From the NCBI GenBank assembly GCA_025617745.1, contig CM046873.1, forward strand, positions 29,525,410 through 29,589,409: DNA of 64,000 nt. Direction: 5' to 3'. This stretch comes from Heliocidaris erythrogramma. Lineage: Eukaryota > Echinodermata > Echinoidea > Camarodonta > Echinometridae. The translations under genes were made by a program, and so were the position numbers. The notes beneath the pieces are model-generated. The model saw only the letters and a program-made list of their open reading frames with translations. It was not told where the DNA came from and searched no databases. Shown piece after piece: positions 5,815 through 32,564 of this stretch. Every line of letters starts with the position of its first letter. The stretch's first letter is position 1.

Positions 5815-6035
5815 TAAAACTGGCATATTTAAAGGGGGGGGGGTCACATCTGGCCTGTGCTCCCCCTTGAAAACCAAGTGGCATACGTGTAGTAGACAAC
5901 CCCAAACCTGTGACCCCCCCCCTCTTTTTGAGGGGGATGACTTCTTTTTTGCATGGCAGCTCAAAAAGTCTTTGGAACATTGTGCCCACCCCCCCCCCTT
6001 TCAAAATCCTGGATCCACCCCTGGGTTTCCAAACG
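5815..6035. repeat. G/C-run-containing MITE-like repeat
   Basis: Starts ATTTAAAGGGGGGG and ends CCCCCTTTCAAAATCCTGG followed by ATCCACCCCTGGG. The ends are imperfect inverted repeats. Similar GGATCCAG..G-run ends are seen at 54418-54460 and 30170-30205, suggesting a dispersed family. Inserted about 120 bp upstream of a TEAD exon. Confidence 0.55.
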
Positions 6036-6151
6036 GCAACTATCCTTTTAATCATTAATTGATTTTTTATATGAACTTTTTTTATTTATAAGATTGATTG
6101 CATTTCATGTTTGTACAGTCTAAAAACTTTCTTCACCCTTCCTCCTTCCAG

Positions 6152-6216
6152 GTCGAAATGAACTCATCGCAAGGTACATCAAACTGAGAACGGGCAAGAC
6201 GAGGACGAGAAAACAG
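6152..6216 (+). CDS. TEAD: TEAD exon: TEA-domain helix 2 and basic linker
   Basis: 65 nt after a pyrimidine-rich tract ending in AG, followed by GTAAGC. The first two bases finish a Gly codon begun in the upstream exon; then [20 protein letters not shown] plus Q, ending in phase 0. This is nearly identical to the vertebrate TEA domain at the same exon border. The preceding TEA exon (ending ...KMYG in the family) was not found in the window. The following intron is about 10 kb and holds the candidate regulatory sites listed below. Confidence 0.96.
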
Positions 6217-9200: not shown

Positions 9201-12200
9201 TTATCAATCTAAGAGAAATTATAAAGCTTTGTCAGTCGATAATAAAGCAGAAACTGTTTCAAATGAATGAAATTTGTCACACAAAAGAAAGCCATCGATA
9301 ATAGCTTTTGAAATCAACTCTCTGTAATGGACTCAGTCTCATTCTCGTCCGTAAATTTGATGAGAACTTGATGAATTTGCCATCAGAATGTTTACATATT
9401 GTCTAAATGCTTGCTTGGCAAAAAAAAAGGAAGAGAGATAGAGAGATAGAGAGTGGGAGAAAAAAAAAATTATTCTCTGACAGGTTAATGCAATTGTTGG
9501 GGCAGAAAGAAAGAGCGATCACTAATTATATGCAGCAGACAATAATGGTCTAATGGTCTATAGGCTTCATTTTTCCTTCTATGATGGTCTGTCTCCTTTT
9601 TTCTTTCTATCATGTTTTCTTATTCCTCTCTGTTTGCTTGTTTTTGCTCCTTCTTTCTCTGTCTTACTATATCTTCTCTCTCTCTCTCTCTCACTTTCTC
9701 ACTCTCCCCACTCTCACCATCCTCATCTCTCTTTCCTCTCCTCTCTTTCCTCTCCTCTTTCCTCTCCTCTCTTTCCTCTCCTCTCTTTCCTCTCCTCTCT
9801 TTCCTCTCCTCTCTTTCCTCTCCTCTCTTTCCTCTCCTCTCTTTCCTCTCCTCTTTCCTCTCCTCTCTTTCCTCTCCTCTTTCCTCTCCTCTTTCCTCTC
9901 CTCTTTCCTCTCCTCTTTTCCCTCTCCTCCCCCTCACCTCTCCTCTCCCTCTTTCCTCTCCTCTTTTCCCTCTCCTCCCCCTCTTTCCTCTCCTCCCCCT
10001 CTTTCCTCTCCTCCCCCTCTTTCCTCTCCTCCCCCTCTTTCCTCTCCTCCCCCTCTTTCCTCTCCTCCCCTCTTTCCTCCCCTCTTTCCTCTCCTCCCCC
10101 TCTTTCCTCCCCTCTTTCCTCTCCTTCCCCTCTTTCCTCTCCTTCCCCTCTTTCCTCTCCTTCCCCTCTTTCCTCTCCTTCCCCTCTTTCCTCTCCTTCC
10201 CCTCTTTCCTCTCCTTCCCCTCTTTCCTCTCTTCCCTCTCTTTTCTCTTCCCGTTCATCTCCCCTCTCCCCCTCTCTCTCTTTCTCTCTCTTTCTCTCTG
10301 TGTGTCTCTCTCTGTCAGAGATTTCCTGTAACCCCTATTATAAATTTCATCACCTTTCTCTATACATGTTTTCATTATATTCTTTCTTCCTCGAGTTATC
10401 TCTGTTTATCTATATGAATATCAGCTCAATTTCTCATTCATCCTGTTTTATTTTCATTTCCTTTGAAAATACATCTGTCAAATACATTCATTTTAGTCAT
10501 AGTGCATTAAACTATTAAATAGCATTTCTTTTTTCTTTCACTGACCTATTTTTGTCAGTTTCCCTCCATCTCTCGTTCTCATTAGATTTCTTCTCTCCTC
10601 ACTGTCTCTCCTTTGATGATAATCTTTATGAATGAATACAATGAAATTTAACACTGAATCTCTATACACCGCCGCTTTCTACATTTCCAATCACCATTTC
10701 TTCAGCCCCTAGTATAGACAGATATCTTGGGCAAAAGGCAAAAGTCAAATTTCACTTTCACTCTCAAATCATAACATCAAATATTCACTGGGATCAAAAA
10801 TACATGCCTGTATGAATTTTTAGAAACTGCAGGAGGGGAGGGTAATTTTAAATTCTGTACCGGTATTAAATGATTCATCGAAATGCCTGCAAACTGGTGT
10901 TTGGTTAGACTATCCACATTTTTGTCCAATTTTGTACCCCATTTCTGGCTTTTTTCTGCTAATTCGATATCTGTCTGGCAACCTAGATATAACAAATGGG
11001 TGAGATAGTTTACCCAGATCTCCATGGCAACGTCATGTTCATGTGCGTCTAGCGCTGCACAGAAGTGAATATCTACCGTTCCTATTGCCAAGTCTCTGCA
11101 TTTCTTCTCCTTGTCGGTCTCCGCTGTGTGGGGGTTGGCCATCTCCACTCTTTGCTGTCACCATGGTAACGTCAAGCTGAAATGACCCGCCTCTCTTAAT
11201 GCATGCTTCACAATTTTCACCCCCATAGGAAAGCCAAGGTGCTATTCAAGAAAGAGAAGAACAAAAAACATAAAATAAAATAAATAATTGTGCTTTCCTG
11301 ATACAAGACCAGATTTGTGCCCTTCCTGTAATTAAATTTGTATAAAGAAATGAAATGCACAAAATTAATTTGATTCTTAAAGGCAAGCTTGAGGACTGGT
11401 TGTGATGGAACATAGCATTTCACACTTTCAAAACAACAATGACTGTTCAGAACTACAAATATATGATGGAAAAATGCACTTATATCATATTTTTCTTTAT
11501 AGTGCTACATTGTTCTTTTAGTGCTACATTGTTCTGATAACGTGTGATGTCTTTGAAAACAATATACATGGTCAGGAATTTTGTCAAAATTTGAAAAAAT
11601 TGCCAATTTTGATAAAAATACAATGATTTTGAGACAATGACTTTGATCCTCTCAACATGTTGCCAATTTAAGGATTTTAAAGCTTATTCTTGTTTTTAAA
11701 AATTTTGGCATCAAACACAATATGGTAATGCAACAATAATGGACAGATTGTGTGTAGAAATTTGTACTCTCTCTACTCATGCATCTTGTATATTTTTTAG
11801 AGCTCTGTATTAAAAGTTGTTGACCCAAACCACAAAATATGGTAAATTGTCTCGAAAGGGTTAATGCCATCTGCAAGTGATGAGATAAAAATCAAAAATA
11901 ATCATTGAGATACCACTGAAGAAATTAATTTGAATATGAATGGCGGCTATTCATTAAATTCTTTCAGCTGTAATGGCTGTAACTCAAATACGTGTATACC
12001 CATCCATTAGTATCAAAATGAAGGATTTGTGTCGCAGAAATCATTACGTTTGATCTCCAACAAATTTTGTCAATTTGCGCAAATCTCCACTGTGCCTGTC
12101 TAATTGGATGGCTCTCATGGAGCCTTTAATTACGCTGTTAAGTTTCCATGGCAACGCCGTGCCCAGGTGACCGTTATCACTGCGTTACTCTCGCTCTTGC

Positions 12201-15200
12201 TACCAGCTAATATGCCGAGCGCGGTATTTGCAGATGACGTGGGATGCGGTGCTGCCGCCAAATGGGGCATTTTAGGTTTGATAGATGGCGCCCGAGTGCG
12301 GGTGATGATTGGATAATGAGGGCTGCAAATGGTCAAATAGGCGTCCATTAATCTATGCCAAGATTAATTAAAGAACGCACTGCCTAAAAAGCTTTCTATA
12401 TATTTGCTTGACATCTTGTTAATGTCATGGAATCAAAAGGATGTGTATAGATATTGTTTTATGTAATGCAGGCATTACAAGAATTAAATATTGTCATTAA
12501 GAATTATGAATCTGAGAGGACGGAAATTCGTCATATGAAATACACATAGATTCAGTGGAATTCATTGAAATTTACCACTCTACACATAATATCCCATTAG
12601 CCTATTTTTTTCTGTGGTTTTGCACAAGAAATTATTCCCAAATTAACAATTATTGGTACGGTTTCTTCCTCGGTTTGGCGTAAGAAATCGTTTCCCGAAT
12701 TAACAATCAATGGTACTTGGCCAATTAAGGGTGAATTAGCTGACCCTCACTTAAAAGTAGGCCTTTTTAATGAAAATTATTGACTGTTTTATTGTTAAAG
12801 GGCATTCAGTTGGAAAAGCGATATACTGATGGAGGTATATACATGTAATTAATGACCATTTTGCAATTTCCAAATTTATAAATTATTGTAAATTGTGCAC
12901 TTACTGCTACAGAAAGAAGTCCCTCACAACATGATCAAAATTTCCAGTTAAATTATGCGCTAATTACATACTCTACAAACAGTTCTAGAATATCTAGTCA
13001 GAAATCTCCATTTTGTTATTCTTCATCATTTCCTCGTAAATTGTCAACTTTCTTGAATTTTTCATCATCAGTTTAGGTCATTTTCATATATTCCATGTAA
13101 AATGCACCACAAATATATTTTGCAAAGATTTGCACTTGCACTGAATAGTATCTGATGACATACCGGGTATTCCAATAAGATAGCAACATTTACATTTAAT
13201 TTTATTCATTTGTATGATTTGTTTACATTTTCAGTAACTATGTTTTTGCACGTTTGTATATTATGCAAGTTAATTAAATTTGATATTGATTTTTGTACTT
13301 GATACAAAGGGGACCAATCACAAAATAATTATTAGACATAAAATCATCCCATACAAAAAAATAAAACATTTTAAATGCTAAATGATTAAACAGCATAAAG
13401 CGAAAATAGTGTTAAATTTGGAAGTGACACATATTTCCAAAATACCAAAATTGCACTTTGAAAGGCAGAAGCAGCTTGTCATATAAAGACATTTTCATTG
13501 TCAATACACTCACATTGAATTCAGCATGTATGCTATGCAGAGTAATAAACTCTTTAAGTTCACTTCATCGCAGGCCTTCAAATAAAATCATACTTTTCCT
13601 TTTACTCTTGCATCAATCATTTGAATGCCTTACGTACTTGTAGGGATGATTTTTTTTCTTTCGATTTCTCTGAATATGCATTATAAAAATCCAAATTATT
13701 TCATTATTTTTGGTGATTGGTGCCATTTGATATATTATTGCTGAATTATTATTTATCAGTTGACAGTTTCTTTATAATTTTATTATGATTTTAATATGAT
13801 TTCTCTCACGTTATTGATGTATACATGTATGTATTTGTCACTTCCTTTTGGTTTTGCTAGCAGATATTGCATGTGCTTGGTTTTAGTCACGAATGTTATG
13901 TTCTTTGTAACATTTAAAAAAAATTGTTTGCACTTGACATTCTCACCCGAATGTCTCCATACAAAGTGGTATAAACCACCCAGGACATGAGGAATGAGGT
14001 TTGGAGTGTTGCACATTTGAGTTTCCATATCACTGTTTTATTAGCTTATTGTGCCTTTACCCATTTTTATTCATTTTTATTTCATTTTTGTTTCAGTTTT
14101 GTTTTGTTTGATAGTTGTAGCACGTTTTGCCTGATGCTTTAGTTAATATTAGTATTGTTTGGTGGCATGTGGTATCTGGTGTTTATTATTTTTTTTTTTA
14201 TTGTTTTATTTCTTGTTTCACTTTCAATACAACAAAGCACTGTACTTCATTGTCTTAGATTATGTCTCAGGATTTAATAAAATCAAAGAATGAGTACTGA
14301 TACATTCCATGTTCCTTCAAAAAAGAAAAAAAGATTTAAAGTCAAGCAAAATTGGTTGAAATTGGTGTTATCTCTTTTCATCTGCTTCATAATTTTGTAA
14401 TACTGATATAATTTTCCAAATTTTATGTATGAAAAGAAGGAAGTGCCTGTTAAAAATTGAATATCTTCAGCATGAAATTGAATACAGAGAAATGATGATC
14501 GTGAAATTTCTATTTTTAATATGATTTAGTATCTTCTTTTACCTTTAGAACCCAATTATAATTATAAGCATTTACTGTTTTGTGGGCTTGGTATGGGAAA
14601 TGATACATTACAATAATATGACACTTCCCCTTTTGAAAAGCCATTTTTTCATCTAAAACTGCACTGTTAAAAAGAGACATGTTAATTTGGAGAATTGCAT
14701 GGAATTCATCATTTTAATAATCCATATGGGATGCTGATGTGTTGATACAGAATGCAAAAAATGAATAAATAATGAGCTCGAGGAGACAAGCATTCACACC
14801 CAGTCCCAACAAAGGGTCAGAGCAATATATTTAATGCACTTAATTCTGATTAAGTGCATATCTACAATTCTTCTGAGTGATAAAAATATACATAATTGAT
14901 GAGCAGAAAGATATGTCCTAATTCCTCAGATGATCTGTTAAGAGGCACAGCAAATTGATAGGCTCTGTATTTGACAAGAAATTCACTTCATTATACTGCG
15001 CCTAATTTGTGCTACTTTTTAAAAATTAGAATATTTGTTTAAAATGTACCAATCACAAAAAATATTTTGCTCTGTCTTTTAGGGATTTTTTGTAGATATA
15101 CAATATTCAACATAAACCTCAAAATGTTGATTCTATAAAGAAATATTGCTAGTTGAAATACACTCCCAAATAAACAATACAGCGACTTGTGAGGAGACTA

Positions 15201-18200
15201 GTCGATGCAACCCTATGTGTTCGCATAGAATAAAGGCCCAAGCGAAACCGAACTCGGAGATGGTTCTTACATGGGGATTTTATGTGATCCTTTACATGTA
15301 CTTTCCTCCTTAACCGTTAGCCCATAGAATCCCAGGTAAAGCATTTTGAGGTTGGTTTTATACATTCTAGCTGTATACAAATTATTTTTTTAGGTTATTG
15401 GTACACTTAAAATTATTTTATTAATTTACAGGTACTTTTTGGGGATGTACATGTAAAGCAAACATTTATGCATGCTACATTTCCCTGGAATTGCAGATTT
15501 AGGTTTTAACCCTTTCATGACACAAATTATTTAAGGGCTAAATTGATCACATTTTATTCTTCAAATTGGCAACAGTAATATTTTTCTTTTAGTGCTACAT
15601 GGTATCAATAAGTTGTAAAGTCTTTGAAAACAATATGCATGCTTAGAAATAAGTCAAAAAGTTGAAAAAATTGCCAATTTAGATGAAAAACATCGATTTT
15701 GAACCTTTCAATGTGTTGCCAATTTAAGGATTGTTAAAATTTAAGAATGAAACAGTTATAATCTCATATAGTAACCAATATCTCAGCCAGAATAGTGAAA
15801 ATTGATCGCTCGTTTTGTATAGGCCTGCATGTATATCCGTACATAATATAACATTTTTGAATACTGTTTAATTGGAACCATAAGCTTGTGTAGCATTATA
15901 ATACTGTCAATTTAATAATACTCTCAAATTGAGTGCGGGGGGGGGGGGGGAATGTTTTGCGATATAAATAATAAAGGAATTTAAACATTTTTACATAGTC
16001 AAATATTTGGGTTGTTCATTAATGTGTCCGAGATTCTGAGAAATAAAAAAAATCTGAGGAATAATCAACGTTAAACATATTACATATGTAATAATAGAAA
16101 CAAATTTCAAGTGTCTTGTCAGTGATTTTTTACCGACTAAATTGCTCTCAGCCAATCAGGTGCAAGGATTTCAGTAGCTTATAACAGTTATTGCAACTTG
16201 TCATTGATGACAAGTTTGATGAAACCGGGCCCAGATTCCTTTTTTTTCCTATAATCTCAATGTGCAAGACTCCAAATGTGCTGTCCTCATTGCCTCCCGT
16301 TTCACACAGGTGTCGAGTCATATTCAAGTGTTAGCAAGGAGAAAAGCCAGGGAACTCCAAGCACTATGTAAGGTATGCTATCAAGACCAGAAAGCATGTT
16401 CCCATTGCCACGATATTCTGCTTGCACAGCCCTCAACAGTTGTGCGTTCACCCTCTCCTGGTCAATGATGTGAACATGAAAAGCATCAGAAAGTTGTTAA
16501 CTCTGTAAACTGTTTTACAGAGTTAATGCCCTTCTGGCTCCGAGCAGATAGTATGCTAGGTGAAAACGTTAATCGACAGCGTATCAAAGGCAGAAGGACC
16601 AAAGTACTGTTTTAATGACAAGAAGAAACTTGTTCGGATGCTGTCTTGTAATACATGGATAGTTCTGCAGTTGTTAAAGAACCCAATAAAAATTACAATT
16701 GAGACAAGAAAAATATCGGTATCTTGTACTCAACCAGTGATATGCCACATTTATTGTGTTTCATGGTCAACTTTTGGATTAAAATTGCTGAAATCTGGAA
16801 GAGGGGATTGTACAACACTGTTGAGTGCTGTGCGATGTGAGAATGTCGCCCAGTGGGTGCGCCAAAGGATCCCCAGGTTGTGCTGGAGACAGAGATGTGC
16901 ATTATGGAATGGAAATGGTCCTTGTGATAACGGGCCATAACCTAATGCTTTGTTCATGATTAATTTTTCATTTTCAAAATAGAGAAACTTTTTAAAGAGA
17001 AAAAAACCCTCTTATGAAGGATCTTTATAATGTTGCATTCTTGAAATTTGATTTGTTCACTTTGGCAGATTTTAGTGGCAAGTGAATAAAGGATGCTTTT
17101 AAACAAGGGCAAAAATATTCACATTCAGTATCAGAGTTGATTATTCAAGTGAACGTATCACACGTATCATACCTGGTGCTCTGTATACAATAGAGATGCA
17201 TCAACACGATGACAAAAACATGCAGAAAGCGAAGGAATGGTTCTGTTCCCACATGCACGTCCCGACTTTGGCACAATGTTAATGGGTGAATCCTCACGTC
17301 GCTCGCAATTTTGTATTTTCTTTCCTTTTCTTCTTTGTTGTGAGTTAGGTCTCGAGTCATATTCAAGTTCTTGCCAAGAGAACTGCTCGGGAAATCACGA
17401 AGCAGTTCAAGGTAGGTGACCAGGTAGGAACACAACCATTCTTATGATTAGGTGGTGGGCATACTGTAAGTCTAAGTAACGTTTTATTCAACGTTTTGAC
17501 ATGATTCTTTCATGTCAAGATAAAAGTTGAGTTCTGGTCAAGCGAATACATTTTGAATGAAACTGTGTGGAAGTTAGTGTCTACATAAGAAATGGTGTAT
17601 ATTTTGAGGTTTTGGAATCTCTATGAGAAGCACATGGACTGCACACAGAAATGGGTATATGGGACTGCACATACATATGTAATGAATGTTTGGTATTGTT
17701 GCTTGTTATATTTTGAATATATGAGGGCATTTTAAACAGCGATCTTTGTCAGGGACATTTCTACTATGATGTTCTTCCAAACTGACATAAAAAGAATGAG
17801 AAAGCTCACAAATTGTTTTTCACCTTTACCAGAACTCAACCTTCTCGCTAATGGTAATATTGAGTTCTTCAGTTTATTTATGTAATAATTTTATTTTTAT
17901 TTTAATATTCATTTATTTATTAATTCATTTATTTATATTGTAATTTATTTTGTCAGATTTTAATTTTTTTTAATTTTTTGTTTTTCCATTTATTTATTAT
18001 TTATTTATTTAAAAAAAATTGGGGGGGGGGGGGTCTTTTTTTGGCAGAGGATGGGGGCAGTTGAAGATGAGAAAGGGAGGTGAAGGGGATAAAAATGAAA
18101 GATGAAAGAAGGCACTTGATTGATTGATCCTCTGTTACACAATCCTGTCATTCCTCTGCTATGTAAAGGAAATATCTGGCATGGGCAAATTCAGAGATAC

Positions 18201-21200
18201 GTCATCTCAAGTTGCATAAACCATGTCACACAGGTATCATCAGTGGATCATATCATTTGTGTGATGACCTGGCCAGAAAGTTCTTGTGCCATGTGTATGA
18301 CGATTCAGTATGAGAAACCCCAGAAGCAGATATTTATGTCCCAATGTTAACTTATGTATTAAATGTACTATGGTTCATTGCCTTCCCTGACAGCAAGCTA
18401 AACATCCTCTTTTTCTTGGGGGGGGGGGGGGGGAGGAAAATATTTTAACTTAAAAAAACGATGATTCAGTTTGAGATGACCGTAATCAGATATTTATGTC
18501 CCAACGATTCATTGCCTTCCTGAACATCAAGTTCTCCCCCCCCCCCAAAAAAAAAAAAAAAAAAAAAAAGAAGAGAAGATGCAGTTTTTAAAATACTTTG
18601 ATATGTACTTTCAAGCATGTAAAGGTAGACTTATTAACAATTCAAAAACTTTTATTGGTATATTTTCTCAGAAACACTTTTTCTCCCAGGAATATGTATT
18701 GATTTGTTTACAAAAGAAAAAGTATAGAATGTATTCTGGATAATTCAAATAGAGAACTATACCTTCGTTCATATGTGTACAATATATTAATTTTTGTTAA
18801 ACTCAGAAATTCTGTTTGCATATCGTCATGCCAAATGCATCTAGAAATATTTGTATATATACATGTACCAATGGATTTTTACCAATTTGATAATTCTCTG
18901 CAACACAATCTTCTGTTAAGTTTCTGCATAAACCTCAATCATGATTGGCTCGTAGCTTTCCTCTTGAAAGCCCATCAGAATTCGCCTTTTACAAGGTTCT
19001 GTAAAACCTTTGATCCTAATCAGCCATTGCTGGAAAATTTTCCTCACATTATCGAATAAGAATCCAACTTTTTTGATTAACTGCAGAAGTTTGAATAGTG
19101 ACGAGCCATTGTTAGGAAACGCTTAGTCAAAGGCTGTCTTTTATAAATTATTGCATATATTATAACTCTTGTACCTGATTTGCCAATGTTAGAGAGTAAT
19201 TGTCATCCTAGCCAATCAGGATCTACCTTCTATATTAAAGTTACTTTAGAAAACTCTTGAACCTGATTGGCTAAAGATAGCTCCCTTACTTTAGCCAATC
19301 ATGTTCCACTTCTTAATATCTGCCTGGCCAATGATGGAAATTTTCCTTACATAAGCCATTAAAAATATGCCTTGTACAAGTAGCTGCAGAGCCCTTTTTC
19401 CCAAACCTGGGTAGTGTGTATAAATAGCTGTTTTATATTGTAGATCATAAGGCATGTCATTGGTACATGTACATATAAGAAATGGAATATAGTTTTGATA
19501 CATTCGGAAAATCTATACACCGCTTAGTCGGTTAAGATACGCAGTTGACAGGCCTAACTGAAGTTGGTTTGGACACTGTTTAACTGGCCTGATTGAAGTT
19601 GGTAAAGATGTACACTTAACAGGCCTGGCCTATAAGTCAATCTCTTCATATTTTTATTCATTTTTTTTTCCTGTTTGGTTCCCTTCCTCCATTGCAGCAA
19701 GACCAAGCAACAAAAGACAAAGCCTTACAGAGCATGGCAGCGATGTCATCAGCGCAGATCGTCTCGGCTACTGCCCTCCAGAACAAAGCTGCCGCCATGG
19801 GCCTTGGAGGTTTAGGGTTACCAGGGGCAGCCCCTCTCAGACCGCCCTATCCAGGAACACCGGTATGTATTTGAGCCACGCCCTTGTATCTCTCATCCTT
19901 GGTATTCCTTATCCTTTCATAGGAAGATGGTGCACATAGTGCGTCCTACATGTATGGGGATGGGTTCTATTTCATATGATTACTTGGGACGGGAAATTAC
20001 CAGGGTACCCTTTCTAAGACCGCCCTATCCAGGAACACCGGTATGTCTATCCCCTTGTATCTTTCATCCTTTCATCAGGACATGATGTGCTTAATGGCCC
20101 TATGGTTGGGTTGGGGGGGGGGGGTGGGGGGGGGGGGGGGGGTAGTTCTTCATGACATTTCAGTCTTATTGGATGGCTTATTGTTACTTGGGATAACTAC
20201 TCTCACGAGCACTGCTATGTATTTGAACCCGAGGCCACGCCCTTCATCTTCCATGCTTGGTATCTCTTAACCTTTCATAGAGAGATGGTGCAAATTCTAT
20301 GTCCTTTGGGGAGGGGATTCTCTTTTTCATTTCACAGGATGACTTTGGTATTCCTCGATATAACCTCTCCTAGACCGCCCGACCCAATTGCAATTGTGTA
20401 TACTTACAGCCACACCTTGTGTCTTTCATACTTACTAAGGAGATGATGCACGTAGTGGGTCCTATGGGGGAGGGGTTCTCCTTTATATTCTAGTATCATA
20501 GAATGCCATTAGGGTACCTCTTTCAGACTCCCAACCTGGAAAACTGGTATCTTTTATGTTTGAGCCCCCCCCCCCCCCCCCTCTCATGTTGAGTGATGCA
20601 GATAAACATTGAAGTAACTCACTTTTTACTTCTCCAAGTAAAGCTGTGAGCTAAATTTTGTGTTAGCATTTCATAGTGATAACCATATTCCTTCTTTTAA
20701 TTCTTGAGGCTTTAGACTATCTATCCTGTGACGTCAATCGTGGTTGAATTTATTATATATATTTTTTTTGGGGGGGGGGGGGTTGGATGGGATGCGGTGT
20801 TGCAGGATACAGTACCGTAACGCTTTGGTGACAGTGCTCCACGTTCTGTGATTTGGCTCAATTACATTTTGATTCAGAGCCCTAAAAATTGTGGATGAGC
20901 AGAAAGAGATAAAGATATCTGCACACACTGTGTCCATTTTTGTAGCATGACCATATTGGGTTTGATATCAGGAATTTCAAAAAGGAGAATAGGCTGTAAA
21001 ATGCTTAAATTGGCAACACATTTGAAAGGTTCAACATCATTTTTAAAATCAAAATTGGCCATTTTTTCAACTTTCTAACAAAGGTTTTATTAGAACCATA
21101 TAGCATTAAAAGAAAAGTATTATTGTTGCCAATTCGAAGAACAATAGGTGATCAATTTAGACCTTGAATAATTCCTCTCGGTGAAAGGGATAAGGCAGGC

Positions 21201-26535: not shown

Positions 26536-29500
26536 TTCACTCTTCTCATCTACCATAAATCTTCTCACATCTCGCATTCCGTCTTCCGAGTGCTACAAAA
26601 AAATATATATTCATCCTTTAACAAATATCTCTCCTTTCTTTTCTCCCCCAGCATCAAACCATTCACATCAGCTCAGCCTTACCCACCCACGGCCACGACG
26701 GTCAGCGAGTACGCGTCGGTCACTCCGGCGTGGGAAGGAAGGTCAATCGGCATGAGGAAGTTACGGCTAGTCGAGTTCCAAGCCTTCATCGAAAGGACGA
26801 GAGAACCGGATAGTGTGAGTCCCCTTGTGGTGCTGTAACAATGATCCAAGATGTAGTTGTTGCATTTGGGTTTTAGGTTAGGCTAAGGATTACGGTTAAA
26901 ATTGATTTAACCTATGGATATCTGAATTATTTTGTTATATAAAAAGCAGAAAGCATCCTTTAATAACTTCATTAACAGAATGTGGAAAGTATTGAAGATT
27001 ATTTTGAGAAAGATGAAACGCAAAATATTTCAAATATTTCTCTTGAATCAAAATGTTCATGTGACCATTAGATATATCAATGGAAATGATTGTAAATCCA
27101 TGCCATGCAAAGGCATACATCTAGCAACAAGCTTTGTAATTCCATGACAGCCTTGTGAAATGGTCCTTTTTGACTCTGAAAACTTCATTTTTGTCCCTGT
27201 ACCTGCATGTATGAGTATTTTTATGTCTGCAGTCTACTCTAATACCACCTCCCTCTTTCTCATCTCATTTTGCCACAGTATAACAAGCATTTCTTTGTAC
27301 ATCTGGGTCCAAATGTCAGCTTCTATGATCCCCTCTTAGAGGTAAGTGCCTTTTGCATCTCATAATTTGCAGCTTACTTTTGAAAGGACTTAATGACAAG
27401 GGTGAAATGGTATGAATGCATTTATACGCATGACACAATAATGCTCCTCATGGAATGGAGATAGTGCACACAATGTTGGAGTGCTTGAAACCAAGTGACA
27501 AGGTTGGTAACAACGGTGTACCAGACCTACCACACACTATTTGGTGAGCTATGTGAAGAAAAGCAGAAGTGTGGATGCCCAAAGAAGTGCTTCAAGGGCA
27601 GCCTAAAGCTCTTTCTAAAGGCTTTTCGCATCCCAACTCCCAAATGGGAACACTTTGCCCAAGACAGGACTATTAAAGTGGCGTTCACGTCTCCACCTTG
27701 GGAGCTCAGACCCACAACAGGAATCTTACTGAAGCTGCGCAGCACAGAAAGGCAGGCAAGGAAGGTGAAAGCTTTAAACCTCCAACCTGCATCCACCCCC
27801 TGCCCCCACTGCCAGGGTAAATTCACGGCTCAGATTGGCCTTTACAGCCATCTTTGTGGCCACTTAACCTAGCTAGGCAATACGCTTTATTGAGGAGTGG
27901 TCGTTATCGCTATACGATGTCAACATATATGCCACACCTGCATAAACCCTCATTTACAGCTATGCTGGTGATGCAGCCTTCTTCTCTTCCCTCCTCTGCT
28001 GTTCTCTAGCTTTGTAACAGGCTCCCTTCGCAATCTGACATCGTCGTCATCAGTAGAAGTTTTCAAACCGAGATTGAAGACATACCTGTTCTGACATGAC
28101 TTGCAATTATTGAACAATTACTGCCACTGCTTGGTTAATTGTATGTTAACTCCAATCCTGACCCAGGGATGACATCTCGGAGCATTTTGAATCAAGTAGA
28201 AAAGGCACTATGTGAATTACCACCATTGTTGTTATTGTTTTCTCTTTATATTATATTATTTATTATTGTTATATAGATGTTTGAGATGTTTGTGAATAAC
28301 GTTTTAGGTTACACCACTTATATTCAGTCAAACCTGCTTTAGCGACCACCTGTATAGAAATACCACCTTGTCTATAAAGACCACAATTTTTACTTCCCTT
28401 GAAACATGTTCCTCATTGAAACATGTATTAAAGGAACCTGTCCATAAAAACCACCTACTCGTAAAGACTGCTTTTCTTGTCTCTCTTGAGCGGTCTTTGT
28501 AGACGGGTTTCACTGTATTTTAAAGAGCCCTGGCAAAAACTGGTGAGCTCTGCCAAGCTGTTATCGTCATTTTTCACCGTCCTGCTTTTGTTTTGTCCAT
28601 TCTTGCTGCAGGCAGTCGACGTGAGGCAAATATACGACAAGTTTCCAGAGAAGAAGGGCGGTCTCAAAGATCTCTATGAGAAGGGACCTTCAGAATCTTT
28701 CTTCCTCGTCAAATTCTGGGTGAGTACCTCTCCCTCAAATTCCATCAAACCTGCCCATAGGGATCACTTGATTTGAAAGACTACTTTTTTCCCTTCAGAT
28801 ATTTTAAAAATATTTGCATCATCATTAACCTAATTCTGACTCAAGGAAATTCTCGCTACCCCAAATACGCCATTTCCCCAACAGATGGCGTTTGTCATGC
28901 AAACCACGCATGCGCAGTGCTGACAATATCACGATGAGGTCGACAAGTGTTTGTCTTTTTGCATTGAAAATGTACACAGGTATTACAAAAATCCTCGAGT
29001 TTGAGTATAAATTAACAGACATGTTTGAAAAGATACCATGATTTATTGAGACAATTGGTTGCATTTTCAAAATTTGAGTTTATGTCATGCGATCCAAAAA
29101 TTAAGCATTTTAGCACTCATTTTATTCATAAGCCGTAGTATTTCAATGCGGACCGGAAGTAAAGTTGATGAAGATGCGGATCATTTCCATGCATAATATT
29201 GCCCTCTACGTCGAAAATTGCATATTTGAGGTAGCGAGAATTAGCTAGATCACAAAAGAACGTTCCTGGTAATTCGCAGTGGAATATTGGACTATTTCAC
29301 TAACTGCTTTTGCGAAAATAAGCCTTGGCTATTATTCCCAAGCCATCTTTGTCTTGTACCTGAAATACGACTTGTACAAATACAGTCAAACCTGCTTTAG
29401 CGACCACCTGTGTAGAAAGACCACCTGCCTTTAAAGACCATACTTTTTGTTTCCCTTGAAAGTGTTTCTCATTGAAACGTGTATTAAAGCAACCTGTTCA

Positions 29501-32500
29501 TAAAGACCGCTTTTCTTGTCTCCCTTGAGTGGTCTTTATAGACGGGCTTCACTGTAACTCAAAACTAACCAGATGCTCTTCTCTTTGATACGTTTCGCAG
29601 GCGGACCTCAACACAAATATGTCAGACGAAACGGACGTCTTCTATGGGGTAACAAGCCAGTAAGTATACAGTGGGGAACGACTTACCGGGGATCTATTTG
29701 AATAGTTAAGATGTTTAGAAGTGTATTTTGTGTTAAAGCAGTGTATTAAAGTTTCTAGTTTTGGATTTTTTGGTTAAAACAGATATATGGTTTAGAAAAG
29801 CCAAATCCCTACAAATTTGATATTCTTGGCTTCCTTCAATTTATTTTGTTGAGAAACGATGTGTTAGTGCCAATTTATTCATAGTATTTGGGAAATTCCC
29901 CCAACCTAATTGTCGTATTTCTTTAATTCTTAGTTAATAAGTCCTATAATGATTTGCAACATTTTTTCCCCATATCTCTTTTTCGTATGCAGTTATGAGA
30001 GTGAGGAGAAAATGACAATCACGTGTTCAACCAAAGTCTGCTCGTTTGGCAAACAAGTCGTAGAAAAAGTAGAGGTGAGTCTTCGTTTATGATGGAATGT
30101 ATGCATGCTTCCAAAATCTATTGGGACACAAAAGGCACCTTTTAGCAAGTTTGCCCACCTATTGCAGAGGCATTTCCAGGATTCCTAGAATTTGGGGAGG
30201 GGGGGGGGGCACGCAGGCATGTCTCCTAGATCTAACACAAGTAGCAAAAGAAAAAAGGGAGAGAAAATGTTTATCTGATTTGCCGATGGGGGCACGTAAT
30301 TTGGCCCGGGGGGGGGGGGGGGGACGGGACTAGAGCCCACATATTGTGGTTGGGCTCAGTAAGTTTTTTTGGAAAGGTTTGTCAGAGTCCTAAAAAAATA
30401 CCTGGTATAAGAGCAGAAAGAGTTTAGATTGCTATTGCGTTACAATAGATCATTGCACAACTGGCAATTTCAAATAGAAATATAAACAACACTTGAACAA
30501 GTTAAAACATCCATGATTTTGCATACAAATTTTCAATTTAAAAACATGGTTTCTGTCCACGTACATATGTATGTGTTTTTTCCAGATACAATTCTCTTTA
30601 TAATAAGAGAGTACCAACTTTAATAGACAAAACATAAAATGCAGGTGGGCCAATTTGTAGAAGAAAAGCTAATCGTTTCAGCCTTTTACAATTCCCTGTG
30701 ATGAATGGGTAATATATCTATGATTTCTTCTCAACTCTATGAGTTATTGGGTGGGTGGATCATTTAAACGGGGATGTTTCTTCACCACAAGATTCCCCTT
30801 GACTTTTCAGACGGAGTACGGGAGGTACGAGAATGGTCACTTCATCTACGAGATCTCGCGGTCGCCCATGTGTGAATACATGATCAACTTCATCCACAAA
30901 CTCAAGCATCTCCCCGAGAAGTACATGATGAACAGTGTACTAGAGAACTTCACAATCCTGCAGGTAAATGGTCTTTTCTCCTGCAGATGCTTGTAAAATG
31001 CCTCCAATTATGACAGACAATCAAAAGCTAGGTTCACACGACAGCCCCTAAACTTTAGCTTTAAAGGCCAAGTCCACCCTAACAAAAAGTTGATTTGAAT
31101 AAATAGAGAAAAATCCAACAAACATAACGCTGAAAATTTCATCAAAATAGGATGTAAAATAAGAAAGTTATGGTATTTTAAATTTTCGCTTAATTTCGCA
31201 AAAACAGTTGTATGCACATCCTGCTCAGTATGCAAATGAGGGAACCAGTGACGTCACCCACTCACTATTTCTTTTGTATTTTATTACATGAAATACGAAA
31301 TATTTTAATTTTTCCTTGTTATAATGTGAAACAAGGTTTGATTCCTCGCTGAACATGTGTAATTGCCATTGTTGCAACCTATACACAATTTAATGAGAGC
31401 TTCCTAATTGTGAAATCTGCAGAAATTAAAATATTCTATATTTCACATAATAAAATACAAAAGAAATAGTGAGTGGGTGACGTCACTGGTTCCCTCATTT
31501 CCATACTGAGCAGGATGTGCATATAACTGTTTTGCGAAATTAAGCGAAACTTTAAAATACCATAACTTTCTTATTTTACATCCTATTTTGATGACATTTT
31601 CAGTGTTATGCTTGTTGGATTTTTCTCTATTTATTCAAATCAACTTTTTGTTAGGGTGGACTTGGCCTTTAAGATAACTTGAGGTGTTGTCATGCAATTA
31701 CATTGTGAAATTAATTTCCCAAAGCAATTTCGAAAGGTTAATCATGTCTAAATAATAATTGGTGTATACTGTAAGGTTTTGGAATCAATCAAAATGATAT
31801 TAATTGACCCAATCTCGCTGAAAAGGACATGCACTGCACACAGAAATGGGTATATGGGACTGCACACACATGTGGCATGAATGTTTGGCCCGGACACTTC
31901 AGCTATTTTTCATCATATTTTTGAATATGAGGACATTTGAACATCAATCCTTTTCAGGGGACATTTCTACTACGTGATGTTCTTCCAAACTGACATGAAA
32001 ATAATGAGAATGTTCAGAAATAATTTGTCATCTTTCCCAGGACTCAACCTTCTCTTTGAGCTTGTAGTTTTCAACTACTTTATCTTGTAGTTACGGATCG
32101 TGCATACGCAATCATGATTTCATAATTTAGGTTCACTCAAAGTTTTGAAACCCCAAGCAATCTTCTGGTTAATGCAGCATGGGGTCCTCACTCAAGTTAT
32201 GTGCCGTGTGGACGCAACCAACTTCCAGGTTTCACCCACTTGTTAAGATTGACCTCTCTATACATACACTCAAGTATCTAGTTTTAACGACTGCTCACTG
32301 GGCTCATAGTTTCAAAACTTTGAGCTGTTGTTGGTTTTGGTCCCGAGCGAACTCTCATTGTTTCAAAACTTTGAGGTTTCAAAACCTAACGTTTATGACT
32401 ACCCGTGCCAGTGTAACTAATCTTTCTGTTTGATTTCATTTCTATTTTAGGTTGTCACAAACAGAGACACGCACGAGACGTTACTATGCATCGCCTTTGT

Positions 32501-32564
32501 CTTTGAAGTGTGTACCAGTGAGCATGGACCACAACATCACATTTACAGACTTGTCAAAGACTAG
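6152..32564 (+). CDS. TEAD: TEAD/TEF-1 (Scalloped) transcription factor, 5'-incomplete, exons spread over 26 kb
   Basis: Nuclear TEA-domain factor that binds MCAT-type sites and recruits YAP/Yorkie, TAZ or Vestigial-like co-activators (family knowledge). Coding exons read from the sequence: 6152-6216, 16310-16372 or 17349-17411 (alternative), 19698-19862, 24847-24890, 26652-26814, 27279-27341, 28612-28719, 29601-29659, 29993-30074, 30811-30963, 32451-32564. All have AG/GT borders and matching phases, giving about 359 residues. The order is: second half of the TEA domain ([20 protein letters not shown], then VSSHIQVLA), a Pro/Gly/Ala-rich linker, then the YAP-binding domain ([70 protein letters not shown] then TAG). 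The cysteine in VCSFGKQ is the palmitoylated one in vertebrate TEADs. Human TEAD1 is 426 aa, so about 65 N-terminal residues are missing; no matching exon was seen in bases 1-6151. The family call is essentially certain; an invertebrate usually has one such gene. Confidence 0.97.
6217..7040. other. TEAD intron, no feature
   Basis: Only a short ACAACA run near 6328-6350. Open frames here have no domain. Confidence 0.5.
7041..7664. mobile_element. TAA-flanked TIR element with GGCCGGCC subterminal repeats (Harbinger-like?)
   Basis: Ends GACCCCATTTACACC (7041-7055) and GGTGTAAATCGGGTC (7650-7664) are inverted repeats with one mismatch, flanked by TAA (7038-7040, 7665-7667). Inside both ends, GGCCGGCC(T/C) and TTTACACC/GGTGTAAA blocks recur in both orientations. 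A 3-bp TAA target duplication fits PIF/Harbinger; the superfamily is an inference. No transposase. Confidence 0.7.
7665..8449. other. TEAD intron, no feature
   Basis: No exon or repeat recognised. A slightly CpG-richer patch lies near 7750-7850. Confidence 0.45.
8450..9046. repeat. TTAA-type MITE, family A (copy 3)
   Basis: TTAAAGGGCAATCCAACCTT at 8450-8469 and AAGGTTAGATTGCCCCTTAA at 9027-9046 are inverted ends with TTAA at both sides. The arms also share the AAAGTTTGA..AAAATCGGAC block in inverted form. Confidence 0.8.
9676..10312. repeat. Polypyrimidine (CT-rich) minisatellite
   Basis: About 640 bp almost purely C and T on the + strand, built from units such as CTCTTTCCTCTCCT. Variants come in blocks: CTCTCTTTCCTCTCCT (early), then units with CCCCCT, then units with TTCCCCT. 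The four large open frames here (up to 321 codons, all S/P/L/F or R/E/G/K) are repeat artefacts. Confidence 0.9.
10777..11148 (-). CDS. Unrecognised open reading frame, doubtful
   Basis: 123 codons from ATG at 11148, starting [20 protein letters not shown] and containing [20 protein letters not shown]. No low complexity; the amino-acid composition looks protein-like, but no family is recognised and no splice context was defined. It lies antisense within the 10-kb TEAD intron. It could be a remnant of a mobile element or a chance frame. Confidence 0.2.
   Translation of the reverse strand: MEMANPHTAETDKEKKCRDLAIGTVDIHFCAALDAHEHDVAMEIWVNYLTHLLYLGCQTDIELAEKSQKWGTKLDKNVDSLTKHQFAGISMNHLIPVQNLKLPSPPAVSKNSYRHVFLIPVNI
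11018..11031. promoter_or_regulatory. X-box-like motif 1 (candidate RFX site)
   Basis: ATCTCCATGGCAAC fits the right half (GGCAAC) and partly the left half of the RFX X-box consensus RYYNYY-N-RRNRAC. Lies within the doubtful open frame. Confidence 0.35.
11157..11170. promoter_or_regulatory. X-box motif 2 (candidate RFX site)
   Basis: GTCACCATGGTAAC is a near-palindromic X-box with both half-sites. RFX factors bind such sites in ciliary and neural genes (family knowledge). Function here untested. Confidence 0.4.
11555..11690. repeat. Dispersed repeat with TTGCCAATTT blocks (copy 1)
   Basis: Shares AAAAAATTGCCAATTT and GTTGCCAATTTAAGGATT with 15630-15740 and, inverted, with 20985-21135 and 51478-51510. 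Confidence 0.55.
12142..12155. promoter_or_regulatory. X-box motif 3 (candidate RFX site)
   Basis: GTTTCCATGGCAAC is a strong palindromic X-box. It lies in a locally GC-richer 200-bp island (about 12110-12320) in an AT-rich intron, close to the paired TAATCT motif at 12347-12368. Confidence 0.45.
12347..12368. promoter_or_regulatory. Inverted pair of TAATCT (Otx/bicoid-class) motifs
   Basis: ATTAATCT at 12347-12354 and AGATTAAT at 12361-12368 form a perfect 8-bp inverted repeat with a 6-nt spacer. TAATCT is the binding core of K50 homeodomains such as Otx. Candidate intronic enhancer together with the nearby X-box. Confidence 0.4.
12369..15040. other. TEAD intron, AT-rich, no feature
   Basis: 2.7 kb without a recognisable exon, transposon terminus or array. 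Short open frames (13458, 13783, 13796) have no domain. Confidence 0.5.
15041..15425. repeat. Dispersed repeat with GTACCAATCAC / GGTACACTT ends
   Basis: It shares with 26285-26475 the left part (GTACCAA.CAC.AAA, then TTGATTCTATAAAG, GTTGAAATACACT) and the right part (TTTTTTAGGTTATTGGTACAC). In this copy about 150 bp is inserted between them. Confidence 0.55.
15630..15740. repeat. Dispersed repeat with TTGCCAATTT blocks (copy 2)
   Basis: Close match to 11555-11690, including TGTTGCCAATTTAAGGATT. The stretch after it, to 16103, holds a G run (about 15937-15951) and nothing else recognised. Confidence 0.55.
16104..16233. repeat. Palindromic MITE family P, copy with mismatched arms
   Basis: Contains the family core (CAGCCAATCAG...AAGGATTTCAGTAGCTTAT). 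The left arm CAAGTGTCTTGTCAGTGATT is of the type at 39217-39353; the right arm TTGATGACAAGTTTGATGAA is of the type at 22239-22370. The arms therefore do not pair well with each other. Confidence 0.6.
16310..16372 (+). CDS. TEAD: TEAD alternative exon, copy 1: DNA-recognition helix (canonical form)
   Basis: 63 nt between ...TTTCACACAG and GTATGC, phase 0 on both sides. It reads [20 protein letters not shown] plus K. It keeps the ARRKARE run of vertebrate TEADs and so is the conserved form of TEA helix 3, which enters the DNA major groove in known TEAD-DNA structures. The tail ELQALCK is less typical (vertebrates have EIQAKLK or similar). It lies 976 nt upstream of the second copy. Confidence 0.93.
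17349..17411 (+). CDS. TEAD: TEAD alternative exon, copy 2: variant DNA-recognition helix
   Basis: 63 nt between a strong pyrimidine tract (17310-17340) ending in GAGTTAG and the donor GTAGGT, phase 0 on both sides. It reads [20 protein letters not shown] plus K. The first nine residues equal copy 1; then ARRK becomes AKRT and the tail differs fully. There is no stop or frameshift, and conservation is at the protein level with many silent differences (GTC/GTG, CTT/TTA, GCT/GCC). Both features argue for an exon under selection, not a dead duplicate. Joining both copies would keep frame but duplicate the helix, so mutually exclusive use is the likely arrangement. No transcript evidence is available here. 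Confidence 0.85.
17518..17852. repeat. MITE family B (copy 1)
   Basis: Ends AAAAGTTGAGTTCTGGT and ACCAGAACTCAACCTTCTC are inverted. The core includes GCACATGGACTGCACACAGA and GGGTATATGGGACTGCACA. Other copies: 25864-26234, 31760-32060, 44740-45257, 46203-46900, 49894-50226. Confidence 0.75.
17853..19697. other. TEAD intron with G/C runs and a cluster of CCAAT motifs
   Basis: G run near 18419-18434, C then A run at 18537-18569. At 18940-19335 seven CCAAT/ATTGG-type motifs recur in both orientations (for example GATTGGCTCG, GCCAATCAGG, GATTGGCTAA). The short frame at 18120-18350 is not a gene. Confidence 0.5.
19698..19862 (+). CDS. TEAD: TEAD exon: end of TEA domain and start of linker
   Basis: 165 nt (55 codons) after TTGCAG, before GTATGT, phase 0 on both sides. 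It begins [20 protein letters not shown], the conserved sequence after TEA helix 3, then [10 protein letters not shown] and a Gly/Leu/Pro-rich run ending RPPYPGTP. The last ~35 nt and the donor are repeated in decayed form downstream (see the tandem repeat). Confidence 0.96.
19829..20560 (+). repeat. Decaying tandem duplication of the TEAD exon tail and donor
   Basis: A unit of about 160-200 bp starts inside the TEAD exon (CAGACCGCCCTATCCAGGAA), crosses its donor and continues into the intron (CCTTGTATCT, CTTTCATAGG, GATGGTGCA). Copy 2 starts near 20005 and keeps ACCGCCCTATCCAGGAACAC then CGGTATGT unchanged. Copies 3 (about 20215), 4 (about 20370) and a partial 5 (about 20515) are increasingly diverged. 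A G-rich run sits in copy 2. Confidence 0.8.
20561..22238. other. TEAD intron; G/C runs and a dispersed-repeat copy
   Basis: C run near 20566-20582, G run near 20769-20782. 20985-21135 carries the inverted form of the TTGCCAATTT repeat. Open frames at 21321-21862 are unassigned. Confidence 0.5.
22239..22370. repeat. Palindromic MITE family P
   Basis: GGGCCTTGTTTCATAGAACT on the left and the inverted GTTTTATGAAATGGGGTCC on the right, around the core CTCAGCCAATCAGATGCAAG. Confidence 0.75.
22371..24846. other. TEAD intron; possible retroelement scrap and GC-richer patch
   Basis: At 22480-22570 a short stretch (GAGCTC..., CAACGTTTCGATAAGG, GATCGTCATCAGGAG) resembles Penelope-like terminal sequence. 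G run near 23447-23457. 23750-24140 is GC-richer and holds an AP-1-like palindrome (23930-23949). No exon found. Confidence 0.4.
23930..23949. promoter_or_regulatory. Palindrome with AP-1 core
   Basis: CGCGATGA and TCATCGCG are perfect inverted arms around TGAG; the centre contains TGAGTCA, the AP-1 consensus. TEAD and AP-1 often act together at enhancers, but nothing here shows this site is used. Confidence 0.3.
24847..24890 (+). CDS. TEAD: TEAD short linker exon
   Basis: 44 nt between TTGTTACAG and GTAAGT. It reads [14 protein letters not shown] and the first two bases of an Asp codon finished in the next exon. Its position and the W-P-G pattern match the vertebrate linker just before VKPF. 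Phase 0 in, phase 2 out. Confidence 0.92.
24985..25215. repeat. Poly-T/poly-G run and CT microsatellite
   Basis: T run then G run at about 24992-25020, then CTGT and CT/CACT repeats up to 25208. Large Ser/Leu frames here are artefacts. Confidence 0.85.
25386..25534. repeat. Palindromic MITE family P
   Basis: GGGTCCCGTTTCATAAAACT then TTGTTATCAATAAC on the left; GTTACTGATAACAAGTTTAT then GAAACAGGGTCC on the right; core TCAGCCAATCAAATGC. Confidence 0.8.
25864..26234. repeat. MITE family B (copy 2), TTAA-flanked
   Basis: TTAAAGGGAAGGTTGAGTTA at the left and CTCAACTTTCTCTTAA at the right. Core shared with the other family B copies (GGATTGCTCTTCAAATGCCC, AGTCCCATATACCCATTTCT). Confidence 0.75.
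26285..26545. repeat. GGTACCAACCACC dispersed repeat and CT run
   Basis: Shorter copy of the repeat at 15041-15425, beginning TTTAAAGGGTACCAACCACC and ending TGATTGGTACACTT near 26463; then C run and CT microsatellite 26503-26536. Confidence 0.55.
26652..26814 (+). CDS. TEAD: TEAD exon: linker and start of YAP-binding domain
   Basis: 163 nt after CTCCCCCAG, before GTGAGT. It finishes Asp, then [20 protein letters not shown], a variable stretch, [11 protein letters not shown] and [19 protein letters not shown]. The last part is the first beta strand of the YAP-binding domain. Phase 0 at the end. Confidence 0.96.
26815..27278. other. TEAD intron, no feature
   Basis: AT-rich; the two small frames around 26932-27147 have no domain. 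Confidence 0.5.
27279..27341 (+). CDS. TEAD: TEAD exon: YAP-binding domain, [10 protein letters not shown] segment
   Basis: 63 nt (21 codons) between TGCCACAG and GTAAGT, reading [20 protein letters not shown] plus E. It is one residue shorter in the loop than the vertebrate counterpart. Phase 0 on both sides. Confidence 0.96.
27495..27872 (+). pseudogene. LINE ORF2 C-terminal fragment with terminal zinc finger
   Basis: 125 codons. The frame contains [14 protein letters not shown] and ends [20 protein letters not shown] followed by H. This C-x2-C-x12-H-x3-H finger after a WE.LAQDR segment is the usual end of an endonuclease/reverse-transcriptase polyprotein in many invertebrate non-LTR retrotransposons. 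No reverse transcriptase is present, so it is a 5'-truncated dead copy in a TEAD intron. Confidence 0.7.
27960..28250 (+). mobile_element. CR1-like LINE 3' end, decayed
   Basis: A frame at 28020-28100 reads [13 protein letters not shown] then stop, the typical end of CR1/L2-type ORF2. It is followed by a tail with AAGGCACTATGTGAATTA and a TTATTGT-rich end, comparable to the tail at 46425-46500. Confidence 0.55.
28324..28517. repeat. Dispersed repeat CAGTCAAACCTGCTTTAGCG (copy 1)
   Basis: About 190 bp with several internal GACCACC motifs, ending GACGGGTTTCACTGTA. The second copy is 29383-29558. Start and end (ACAGT..., ...ACTGT) are weakly inverted. Confidence 0.7.
28612..28719 (+). CDS. TEAD: TEAD exon: YAP-binding domain, [13 protein letters not shown] segment
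   Basis: 108 nt (36 codons) between GCTGCAG and GTGAGT. It contains [20 protein letters not shown] and ends FFLVKFW. Residues of this segment help form the YAP-contact surface in vertebrate TEADs. Phase 0 on both sides. Confidence 0.97.
28848..29242. repeat. MITE family C (copy 1)
   Basis: Inverted ends AATTCTCGCTACC (28848-28860) and GGTAGCGAGAATT (29230-29242). The whole 395-400 bp is nearly identical to 44225-44624. No coding capacity. Confidence 0.85.
29383..29558. repeat. Dispersed repeat CAGTCAAACCTGCTTTAGCG (copy 2)
   Basis: Close copy of 28324-28517 one kilobase downstream, ending GACGGGCTTCACTGTA, just upstream of a TEAD exon. Confidence 0.7.
29601..29659 (+). CDS. TEAD: TEAD exon: YAP-binding domain, ADLN...FYGVTS segment
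   Basis: 59 nt between TTTCGCAG and GTAAGT. It reads [19 protein letters not shown], with two bases of a split codon. With the next exon the split codon is CAT (His), where vertebrate TEADs have Gln before YES. Confidence 0.95.
29993..30074 (+). CDS. TEAD: TEAD exon: palmitoylation-site segment
   Basis: 82 nt between GTATGCAG and GTGAGT. After one base of a split codon it reads [20 protein letters not shown] and QVVEKVE. The Cys of VCSFGKQ corresponds to the auto-palmitoylated cysteine facing the central lipid pocket in vertebrate TEADs. Confidence 0.96.
30165..30330. repeat. G-run-containing repeat
   Basis: GAGGCATTTCCAGGATTCCT then a G run (30197-30209) and, further on, a second G run (30308-30322). 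Resembles the repeat at 5815-6035. Confidence 0.5.
30811..30963 (+). CDS. TEAD: TEAD exon: YAP-binding domain, helical hairpin
   Basis: 153 nt (51 codons) between CTTTTCAG and GTAAAT. It contains [35 protein letters not shown] and the upstream [16 protein letters not shown]. Very highly conserved. Phase 0 on both sides. Confidence 0.97.
31061..31672. repeat. Long fold-back TTAA MITE
   Basis: TTAAAGGCCAAGTCCACCCT at 31061-31080 and AGGGTGGACTTGGCCTTTAA at 31653-31672, TTAA on both sides. The arms stay complementary for roughly 200 bp, including GGGAACCAGTGACGTCACCC on the left and its inverse near 31479-31498. Between TEAD exons, so it could form a large hairpin in the pre-mRNA. Confidence 0.85.
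31760..32060. repeat. MITE family B (copy 3)
   Basis: Contains GACATGCACTGCACACAGAA, GGGTATATGGGACTGCACA and the end CAGGACTCAACCTTCTC. The left terminus is diverged. Confidence 0.65.
32451..32564 (+). CDS. TEAD: TEAD last coding exon and stop
   Basis: 114 nt after TCTATTTTAG. It reads [37 protein letters not shown], then TAG at 32562-32564. The HHIYRLVKD terminus is the invariant C-terminus of TEAD proteins. Confidence 0.97.

Follow-up and report, generated by a model that had tools for sequence, protein, structure and literature searches.

The TEAD gene and its paired exons

The window analysed here is a stretch of 64,000 nucleotides from the sea urchin Heliocidaris erythrogramma (C21:29525410-29589409) that carries a TEAD gene. 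TEAD provides the Hippo pathway with its DNA-binding output, and vertebrates diversify it mainly through four genes. Between two constant exons of the gene in the window lie two further coding exons, A and B, which are adjacent, homologous and alike in length and phase. Their borders read cacacag/GTGTCG...TGTAAG/gtatgc for A and gagttag/GTCTCG...TTCAAG/gtaggt for B, with slashes marking the exon edges (Table 1). Sequence, coordinates and reading frame confirm the preliminary description of two 63-nt, phase-0 exons, 976 nt apart, with proper splice sites and a common VSSHIQVLA start.

The gene matches TEF-3 (5gzb_A) at 6.4e-58. In a search of the whole genome (1.06 Gb, 26 contigs), all three matches to the YAP-binding domain PF17725 fall within this gene and no second YAP-binding domain was found; the gene is therefore apparently the sole TEAD gene of the genome, with match counts read as lower bounds. 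Matches to the TEA profile occur at three places, namely an upstream exon at C21:29508272, exon 3 in the window, and a duplicate of exon 3 on contig C8. Contig C24 of the same genome is a partial mitochondrial genome: its COX1 frame stays open under genetic code table 9, with AAA (Asn) and AGA (Ser) at conserved positions, and tRNA-Arg, ND4L, COX2, ATP6, COX3, ND3, ND4 and tRNA-His come after it, which is the gene order of echinoderms.

Table 1. Features of the TEAD gene, in positions of the window
Feature	Position	Strand	Remarks
Constant upstream coding exon (exon 3)	6152..6216	+	completes G; phase-0 end; donor GTAAGC
Exon A, 63 nt, canonical-like copy	16310..16372	+	agrees with human TEAD4 (5gzb) at 9 of 12 variable positions
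Inter-copy intron, 976 nt, GT...AG	16373..17348	+	without homology to the other A/B flanks
Exon B, 63 nt, diverged copy	17349..17411	+	agrees with TEAD4 at 6 of 12 variable positions
GGTGGTGGG	17451..17459	+	about 40 nt past the B donor; hint only, one of 13 motifs tried
Next constant exon, phase 0	19698..19862	+	
Downstream TEAD exons, including YAP-binding domain	26652..32564	+	edges read by eye
Downstream TEAD exons, first four	26652-26814, 27279-27341, 28612-28719, 29601-29659	+	
Downstream TEAD exons, last three	29993-30074, 30811-30963, 32451-32564 (with stop)	+	

Exons A and B are identical at 42 of 63 nucleotides and 14 of 21 amino acids, with a dN of 0.25 and a dS of about 2.8 (Nei-Gojobori; the comparison spans 63 nt only and dS is saturated). 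The resemblance is confined to the exon; ungapped identity of the flanks is 0.32-0.45 over 20, 50 and 100 nt on each side, and the sole significant BLAST alignment (E 5e-7) comprises 48 nt of exon plus the AG. When 21 substitutions are placed randomly on A, the chance that at least 14 amino acids are kept without a stop is about 0.0007, and the chance that the first nine are kept is 0.00008. The exon-limited homology, the excess of dS over dN and this conservation support the earlier claim of an old duplication under selection, and indicate that B is an old tandem exon duplicate constrained at the protein level. The many silent differences also claimed hold only outside SSHIQ: of the 14 codons for shared residues, 6 differ silently, whereas codons 2-6, which encode SSHIQ, agree at every base. 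These codons belong to a 17-nt identical run, TCGAGTCATATTCAAGT, within 16311-16329 and 17350-17368 (P about 0.005 under 21 random differences). Because synonymous sites outside it are saturated, this run suggests either an exonic splicing element common to both copies or local gene conversion; such a splicing element could be unrelated to protein function.

Splice sites and probable alternative use

All four splice sites of A and B rank in the top 0.2-2.1% of the window's AG or GT dinucleotides. Acceptors score 6.4 (A) and 4.5 (B) and donors 4.3 (A) and 6.1 (B), under weights set to vertebrate frequencies. Conceptual splicing from 6216 to 19698 stays in frame with A, with B, with both and with neither, which supports the earlier statement that each exon can be joined to both neighbors. 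Frame thus does not force exclusion, and exclusion by a frame break is ruled out.

Judged from the sequence, alternative use of the two exons is likely. We propose, with a probability of about 0.62, that B is an old duplicate of the helix 3 exon, retained so that it can take the place of A, such that one TEAD gene would yield two proteins. We infer that some mRNAs carry A and others B between 6216 and 19698. The main argument that B replaces A is the preservation of its first nine residues, since these would be free to change if B were merely added after A. The same preservation bears on the unlikely case of B as a cassette added after A, inserting 21 residues behind helix 3 in a position like that of the small exon 6 of mammalian TEAD1. 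The A+B product is in frame, the inter-copy intron should permit A-B splicing, and mammalian TEAD1 has a regulated 12-nt exon in the DNA-binding-domain region (PMC10167241, in excerpt), but the nine TEA-profile residues kept in B (chance 0.00008) are sensible only if B itself is helix 3. It is also improbable that B is a relic, or is spliced too rarely to matter; its acceptor is weaker than that of A (4.5 vs 6.4) and another AG lies nearby upstream, but its coding constraint, its open frame and a donor stronger than that of A (6.1 vs 4.3) argue against this. The finding is genuine and the duplicated exon B probably functional.

We take exon 5 of mammalian TEAD1 to be the homolog of the A/B exon. 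The excerpted text of a review describes SRSF1-dependent inclusion of this exon 5 and control of exon 6 by RBFOX2, such that splicing acts in the DNA-binding-domain region as it would for A and B; unlike A and B, these are cases of single-exon skipping or inclusion, the excerpt mentions no duplicated alternative, and the effect reported for exon 6 is on YAP interaction, not on DNA binding (PMC10167241). The preliminary description had placed the alternative splicing of vertebrate TEADs elsewhere, which these regulated exons make doubtful. Because mammalian TEAD1 has regulated exons there, the DNA-binding-domain region of TEAD is, by analogy, a recurrent splicing target. A further TEAD splice isoform, TEAD4-S, is reported with altered localization and DNA binding, the kinds of change considered here for the A/B pair, but it loses the whole DNA-binding domain and is dominant-negative (PMC5867882, in excerpt).

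Several routes by which one exon could be chosen over the other were considered. Steric exclusion by a short intron is rejected on the length of the A-B intron, 976 nt, and, as regards a U2/U12 incompatibility, both copies are GT-AG. Docking/selector RNA structure showed no convincing excess across 12 settings with 60 shuffles each, and nothing at 11 nt; in the two lowest settings, with docking in the upstream intron, 3 of 60 shuffles attained the observed count in one and 1 of 60 in the other. As the short-intron and frame routes are closed and docking/selector structure is without convincing support, the A/B choice is probably set by trans-acting splicing factors, not by frame or intron length. 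Among 13 splicing-factor motifs counted in 1576 nt around A and B, TGCATG and CTCTCT are both absent (0.91 and 2.54 expected), and GGTGGTGG occurs once, at 17451 (0.05 expected, with 13 motifs tried). The GGTGGTGGG stretch at this position resembles GGU-rich ESRP sites. The mutually exclusive FGFR exons IIIb and IIIc likewise go back to a tandem duplication within a deuterostome signaling gene; unlike TEAD, FGFR is a receptor, its Esrp control is shown in chordates, and sea urchin has a single IIIb/IIIc exon (PMC5703972). The word Tead is absent from that paper, and no link between Esrp and TEAD is claimed.

Two features of the surrounding introns were also recorded. A pyrimidine-rich (CT) tandem array of about 660 nt occupies 9652-10313 in the intron preceding exon A. 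Over 15300-19800 there are 48 inverted repeats, of which the best 25 by length were examined; one 22-nt pair, 16150-16171 with 19251-19272, could loop out both exons, in competition with a local hairpin at 19259-19306, and this pair may be due to chance or be repeat-derived.

Residues that differ between the two exons

The TEA profile of Pfam ends at exon residue 9 in A and residue 10 in B. All nine VSSHIQVLA residues in the profile are common to both exons, and the seven amino-acid changes lie at or past its edge. Against PF01285 (cut-off 25.1), the conceptual A form reaches 100.1 bits and the B form 100.4, and the form that skips both exons falls to 75.3 bits, a loss of about 25. Since A and B score alike and the skip form falls, either exon completes the TEA domain. 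After VSSHIQVL, human TEAD4 (5gzb) reads ARRKAREIQAKLK; over the last 12 residues A is closer to it than B (Table 1), and B is therefore the diverged copy. The preliminary description equated the segment with the DNA-reading helix 3; this needs correcting, as the TEA-profile part of the exon contains none of the differing residues.

Judged by FOXP1 and TCF3, alternative exons that alter the DNA-binding domain of a transcription factor are a known kind. Like A and B, FOXP1 exons 18 and 18b are frame-keeping alternatives that alter such a domain, with one used at a time; the FOXP1 exons are reported to be used in RNA and to alter the DNA motif, whereas the TEAD pair is known from sequence and its changes lie past the TEA profile (PMC11701043, in excerpt). 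The neighboring alternative exons 18A and 18B of TCF3 (E2A), which give E12 and E47, also encode slightly different DNA-binding domains, with a reported difference in DNA affinity, but they belong to a bHLH domain and their regulation has been studied (PMC12585103, in excerpt). A switch in DNA sequence specificity or in tandem-site cooperativity, of the sort that FOXP1 exons 18/18b bring about for forkhead motifs, is quite unlikely for TEAD. In its favor are that precedent and the contribution of the exon to helix 3, a reported major-groove contact (PMC5876656, in excerpt); against it, A and B share every TEA-profile residue and the score of B is that of a normal TEA domain. Altered specificity is thus not the first expectation, because the nine profile residues do not differ. 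Under the alternative use of A and B that we propose, both forms would retain VSSHIQVLA and so read the same MCAT-type site. The 12 residues that follow, where the forms differ, would comprise an extension of helix 3 and the C-terminal basic cluster of a nuclear-import signal, and a switch between them could tune nuclear import, non-specific DNA affinity or control by phosphorylation.

The bipartite import signal of Drosophila Scalloped has been mapped, with RRKLR as its C-terminal cluster; the nuclear signal, 92.5% at the outset, fell to 46.9% when the four C-terminal basic residues were changed to Asn and to 79.6% when the two N-terminal ones were altered (PMC3121794). The residues that differ between A and B overlap the C-terminal half of a signal of this type. 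Constant exon 3 supplies the N-terminal basic pair RK, and the C-terminal cluster, in which there are two changes, reads RRKAR (four basic) in A and KRTAR (three basic) in B. Both forms agree with the rule (K/R)2 X10 (K/R) at least 3 of 5, as RK plus 10 residues is followed by 4/5 in A and 3/5 in B. The 12 variable residues carry a net charge of +4 in either exon. Because B retains all but one of the four basic residues and equals A in net charge, the change in import from A to B may be small. Of the effects on affinity, specificity or import proposed beforehand, specificity proved the weakest given the identical TEA-profile residues, whereas import and affinity gained strength from the overlap with the Scalloped signal. 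An effect on import, affinity or phosphorylation control thus seems more likely than one on base specificity.

Exon B carries a Thr, in the context T-A-R, where A and other TEADs carry Lys. The PKA site of TEAD1 is presumably the Ser adjoining the position of this Thr. DNA binding by TEAD is reported to be inhibited by PKA and PKC phosphorylation (PMC6628201, in excerpt). Tentatively, with the Thr of B in the helix 3 extension and import signal, exon choice could set kinase control of TEAD import and DNA binding by tissue or stage. If so, splicing would give Hippo output a second input, encoded in the choice of exon, whereas vertebrates have several TEAD genes instead. The apparently single TEAD gene here seems to have been diversified within the same domain through duplication of an exon. 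If A and B are used alternatively, they offer a compact natural experiment in which the base-reading part of helix 3 stays identical and the import and affinity extension changes; it could be carried out in sea urchin embryos, which lend themselves to exon-specific knock-down.

Occurrence elsewhere and a displaced copy of exon 3

Duplicated helix 3 exons in TEAD were not found among the matches listed from a search of open-licence literature (titles and abstract openings). The exons of scalloped have been compared in 24 species including S. purpuratus (PMC3620549, figure and supplement), and the A/B pair may be visible in that comparison or in public gene annotation. A scan for the exon-pair pattern returned four bacterial matches in a prokaryote collection and none in viral contigs.

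The search of the whole genome gave one match for A with its flanks and one for B with its flanks, and no third SSHIQ-like stretch occurs in six frames of the 104 kb around the locus. An assembly artefact or collapsed haplotypes are most improbable as the source of the pair; copying does occur here, as another contig carries second copies of a 1.2-kb and a 0.4-kb block from the surroundings of exon 3, but an assembly duplicate of A and B is rejected on their unrelated flanks and the single genome match for each.

The copied surroundings of exon 3 correspond to 5850-7040 and 7664-8076 of the window and lie at C8:5146508-5148118, as one block of 1230 nt at 90.1% identity and another of 413 nt at 97.8%. 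No further TEAD exons were found beside this copy in 40 kb of that region. The copy contains exon 3 with its splice sites, with 1 base change in 65.
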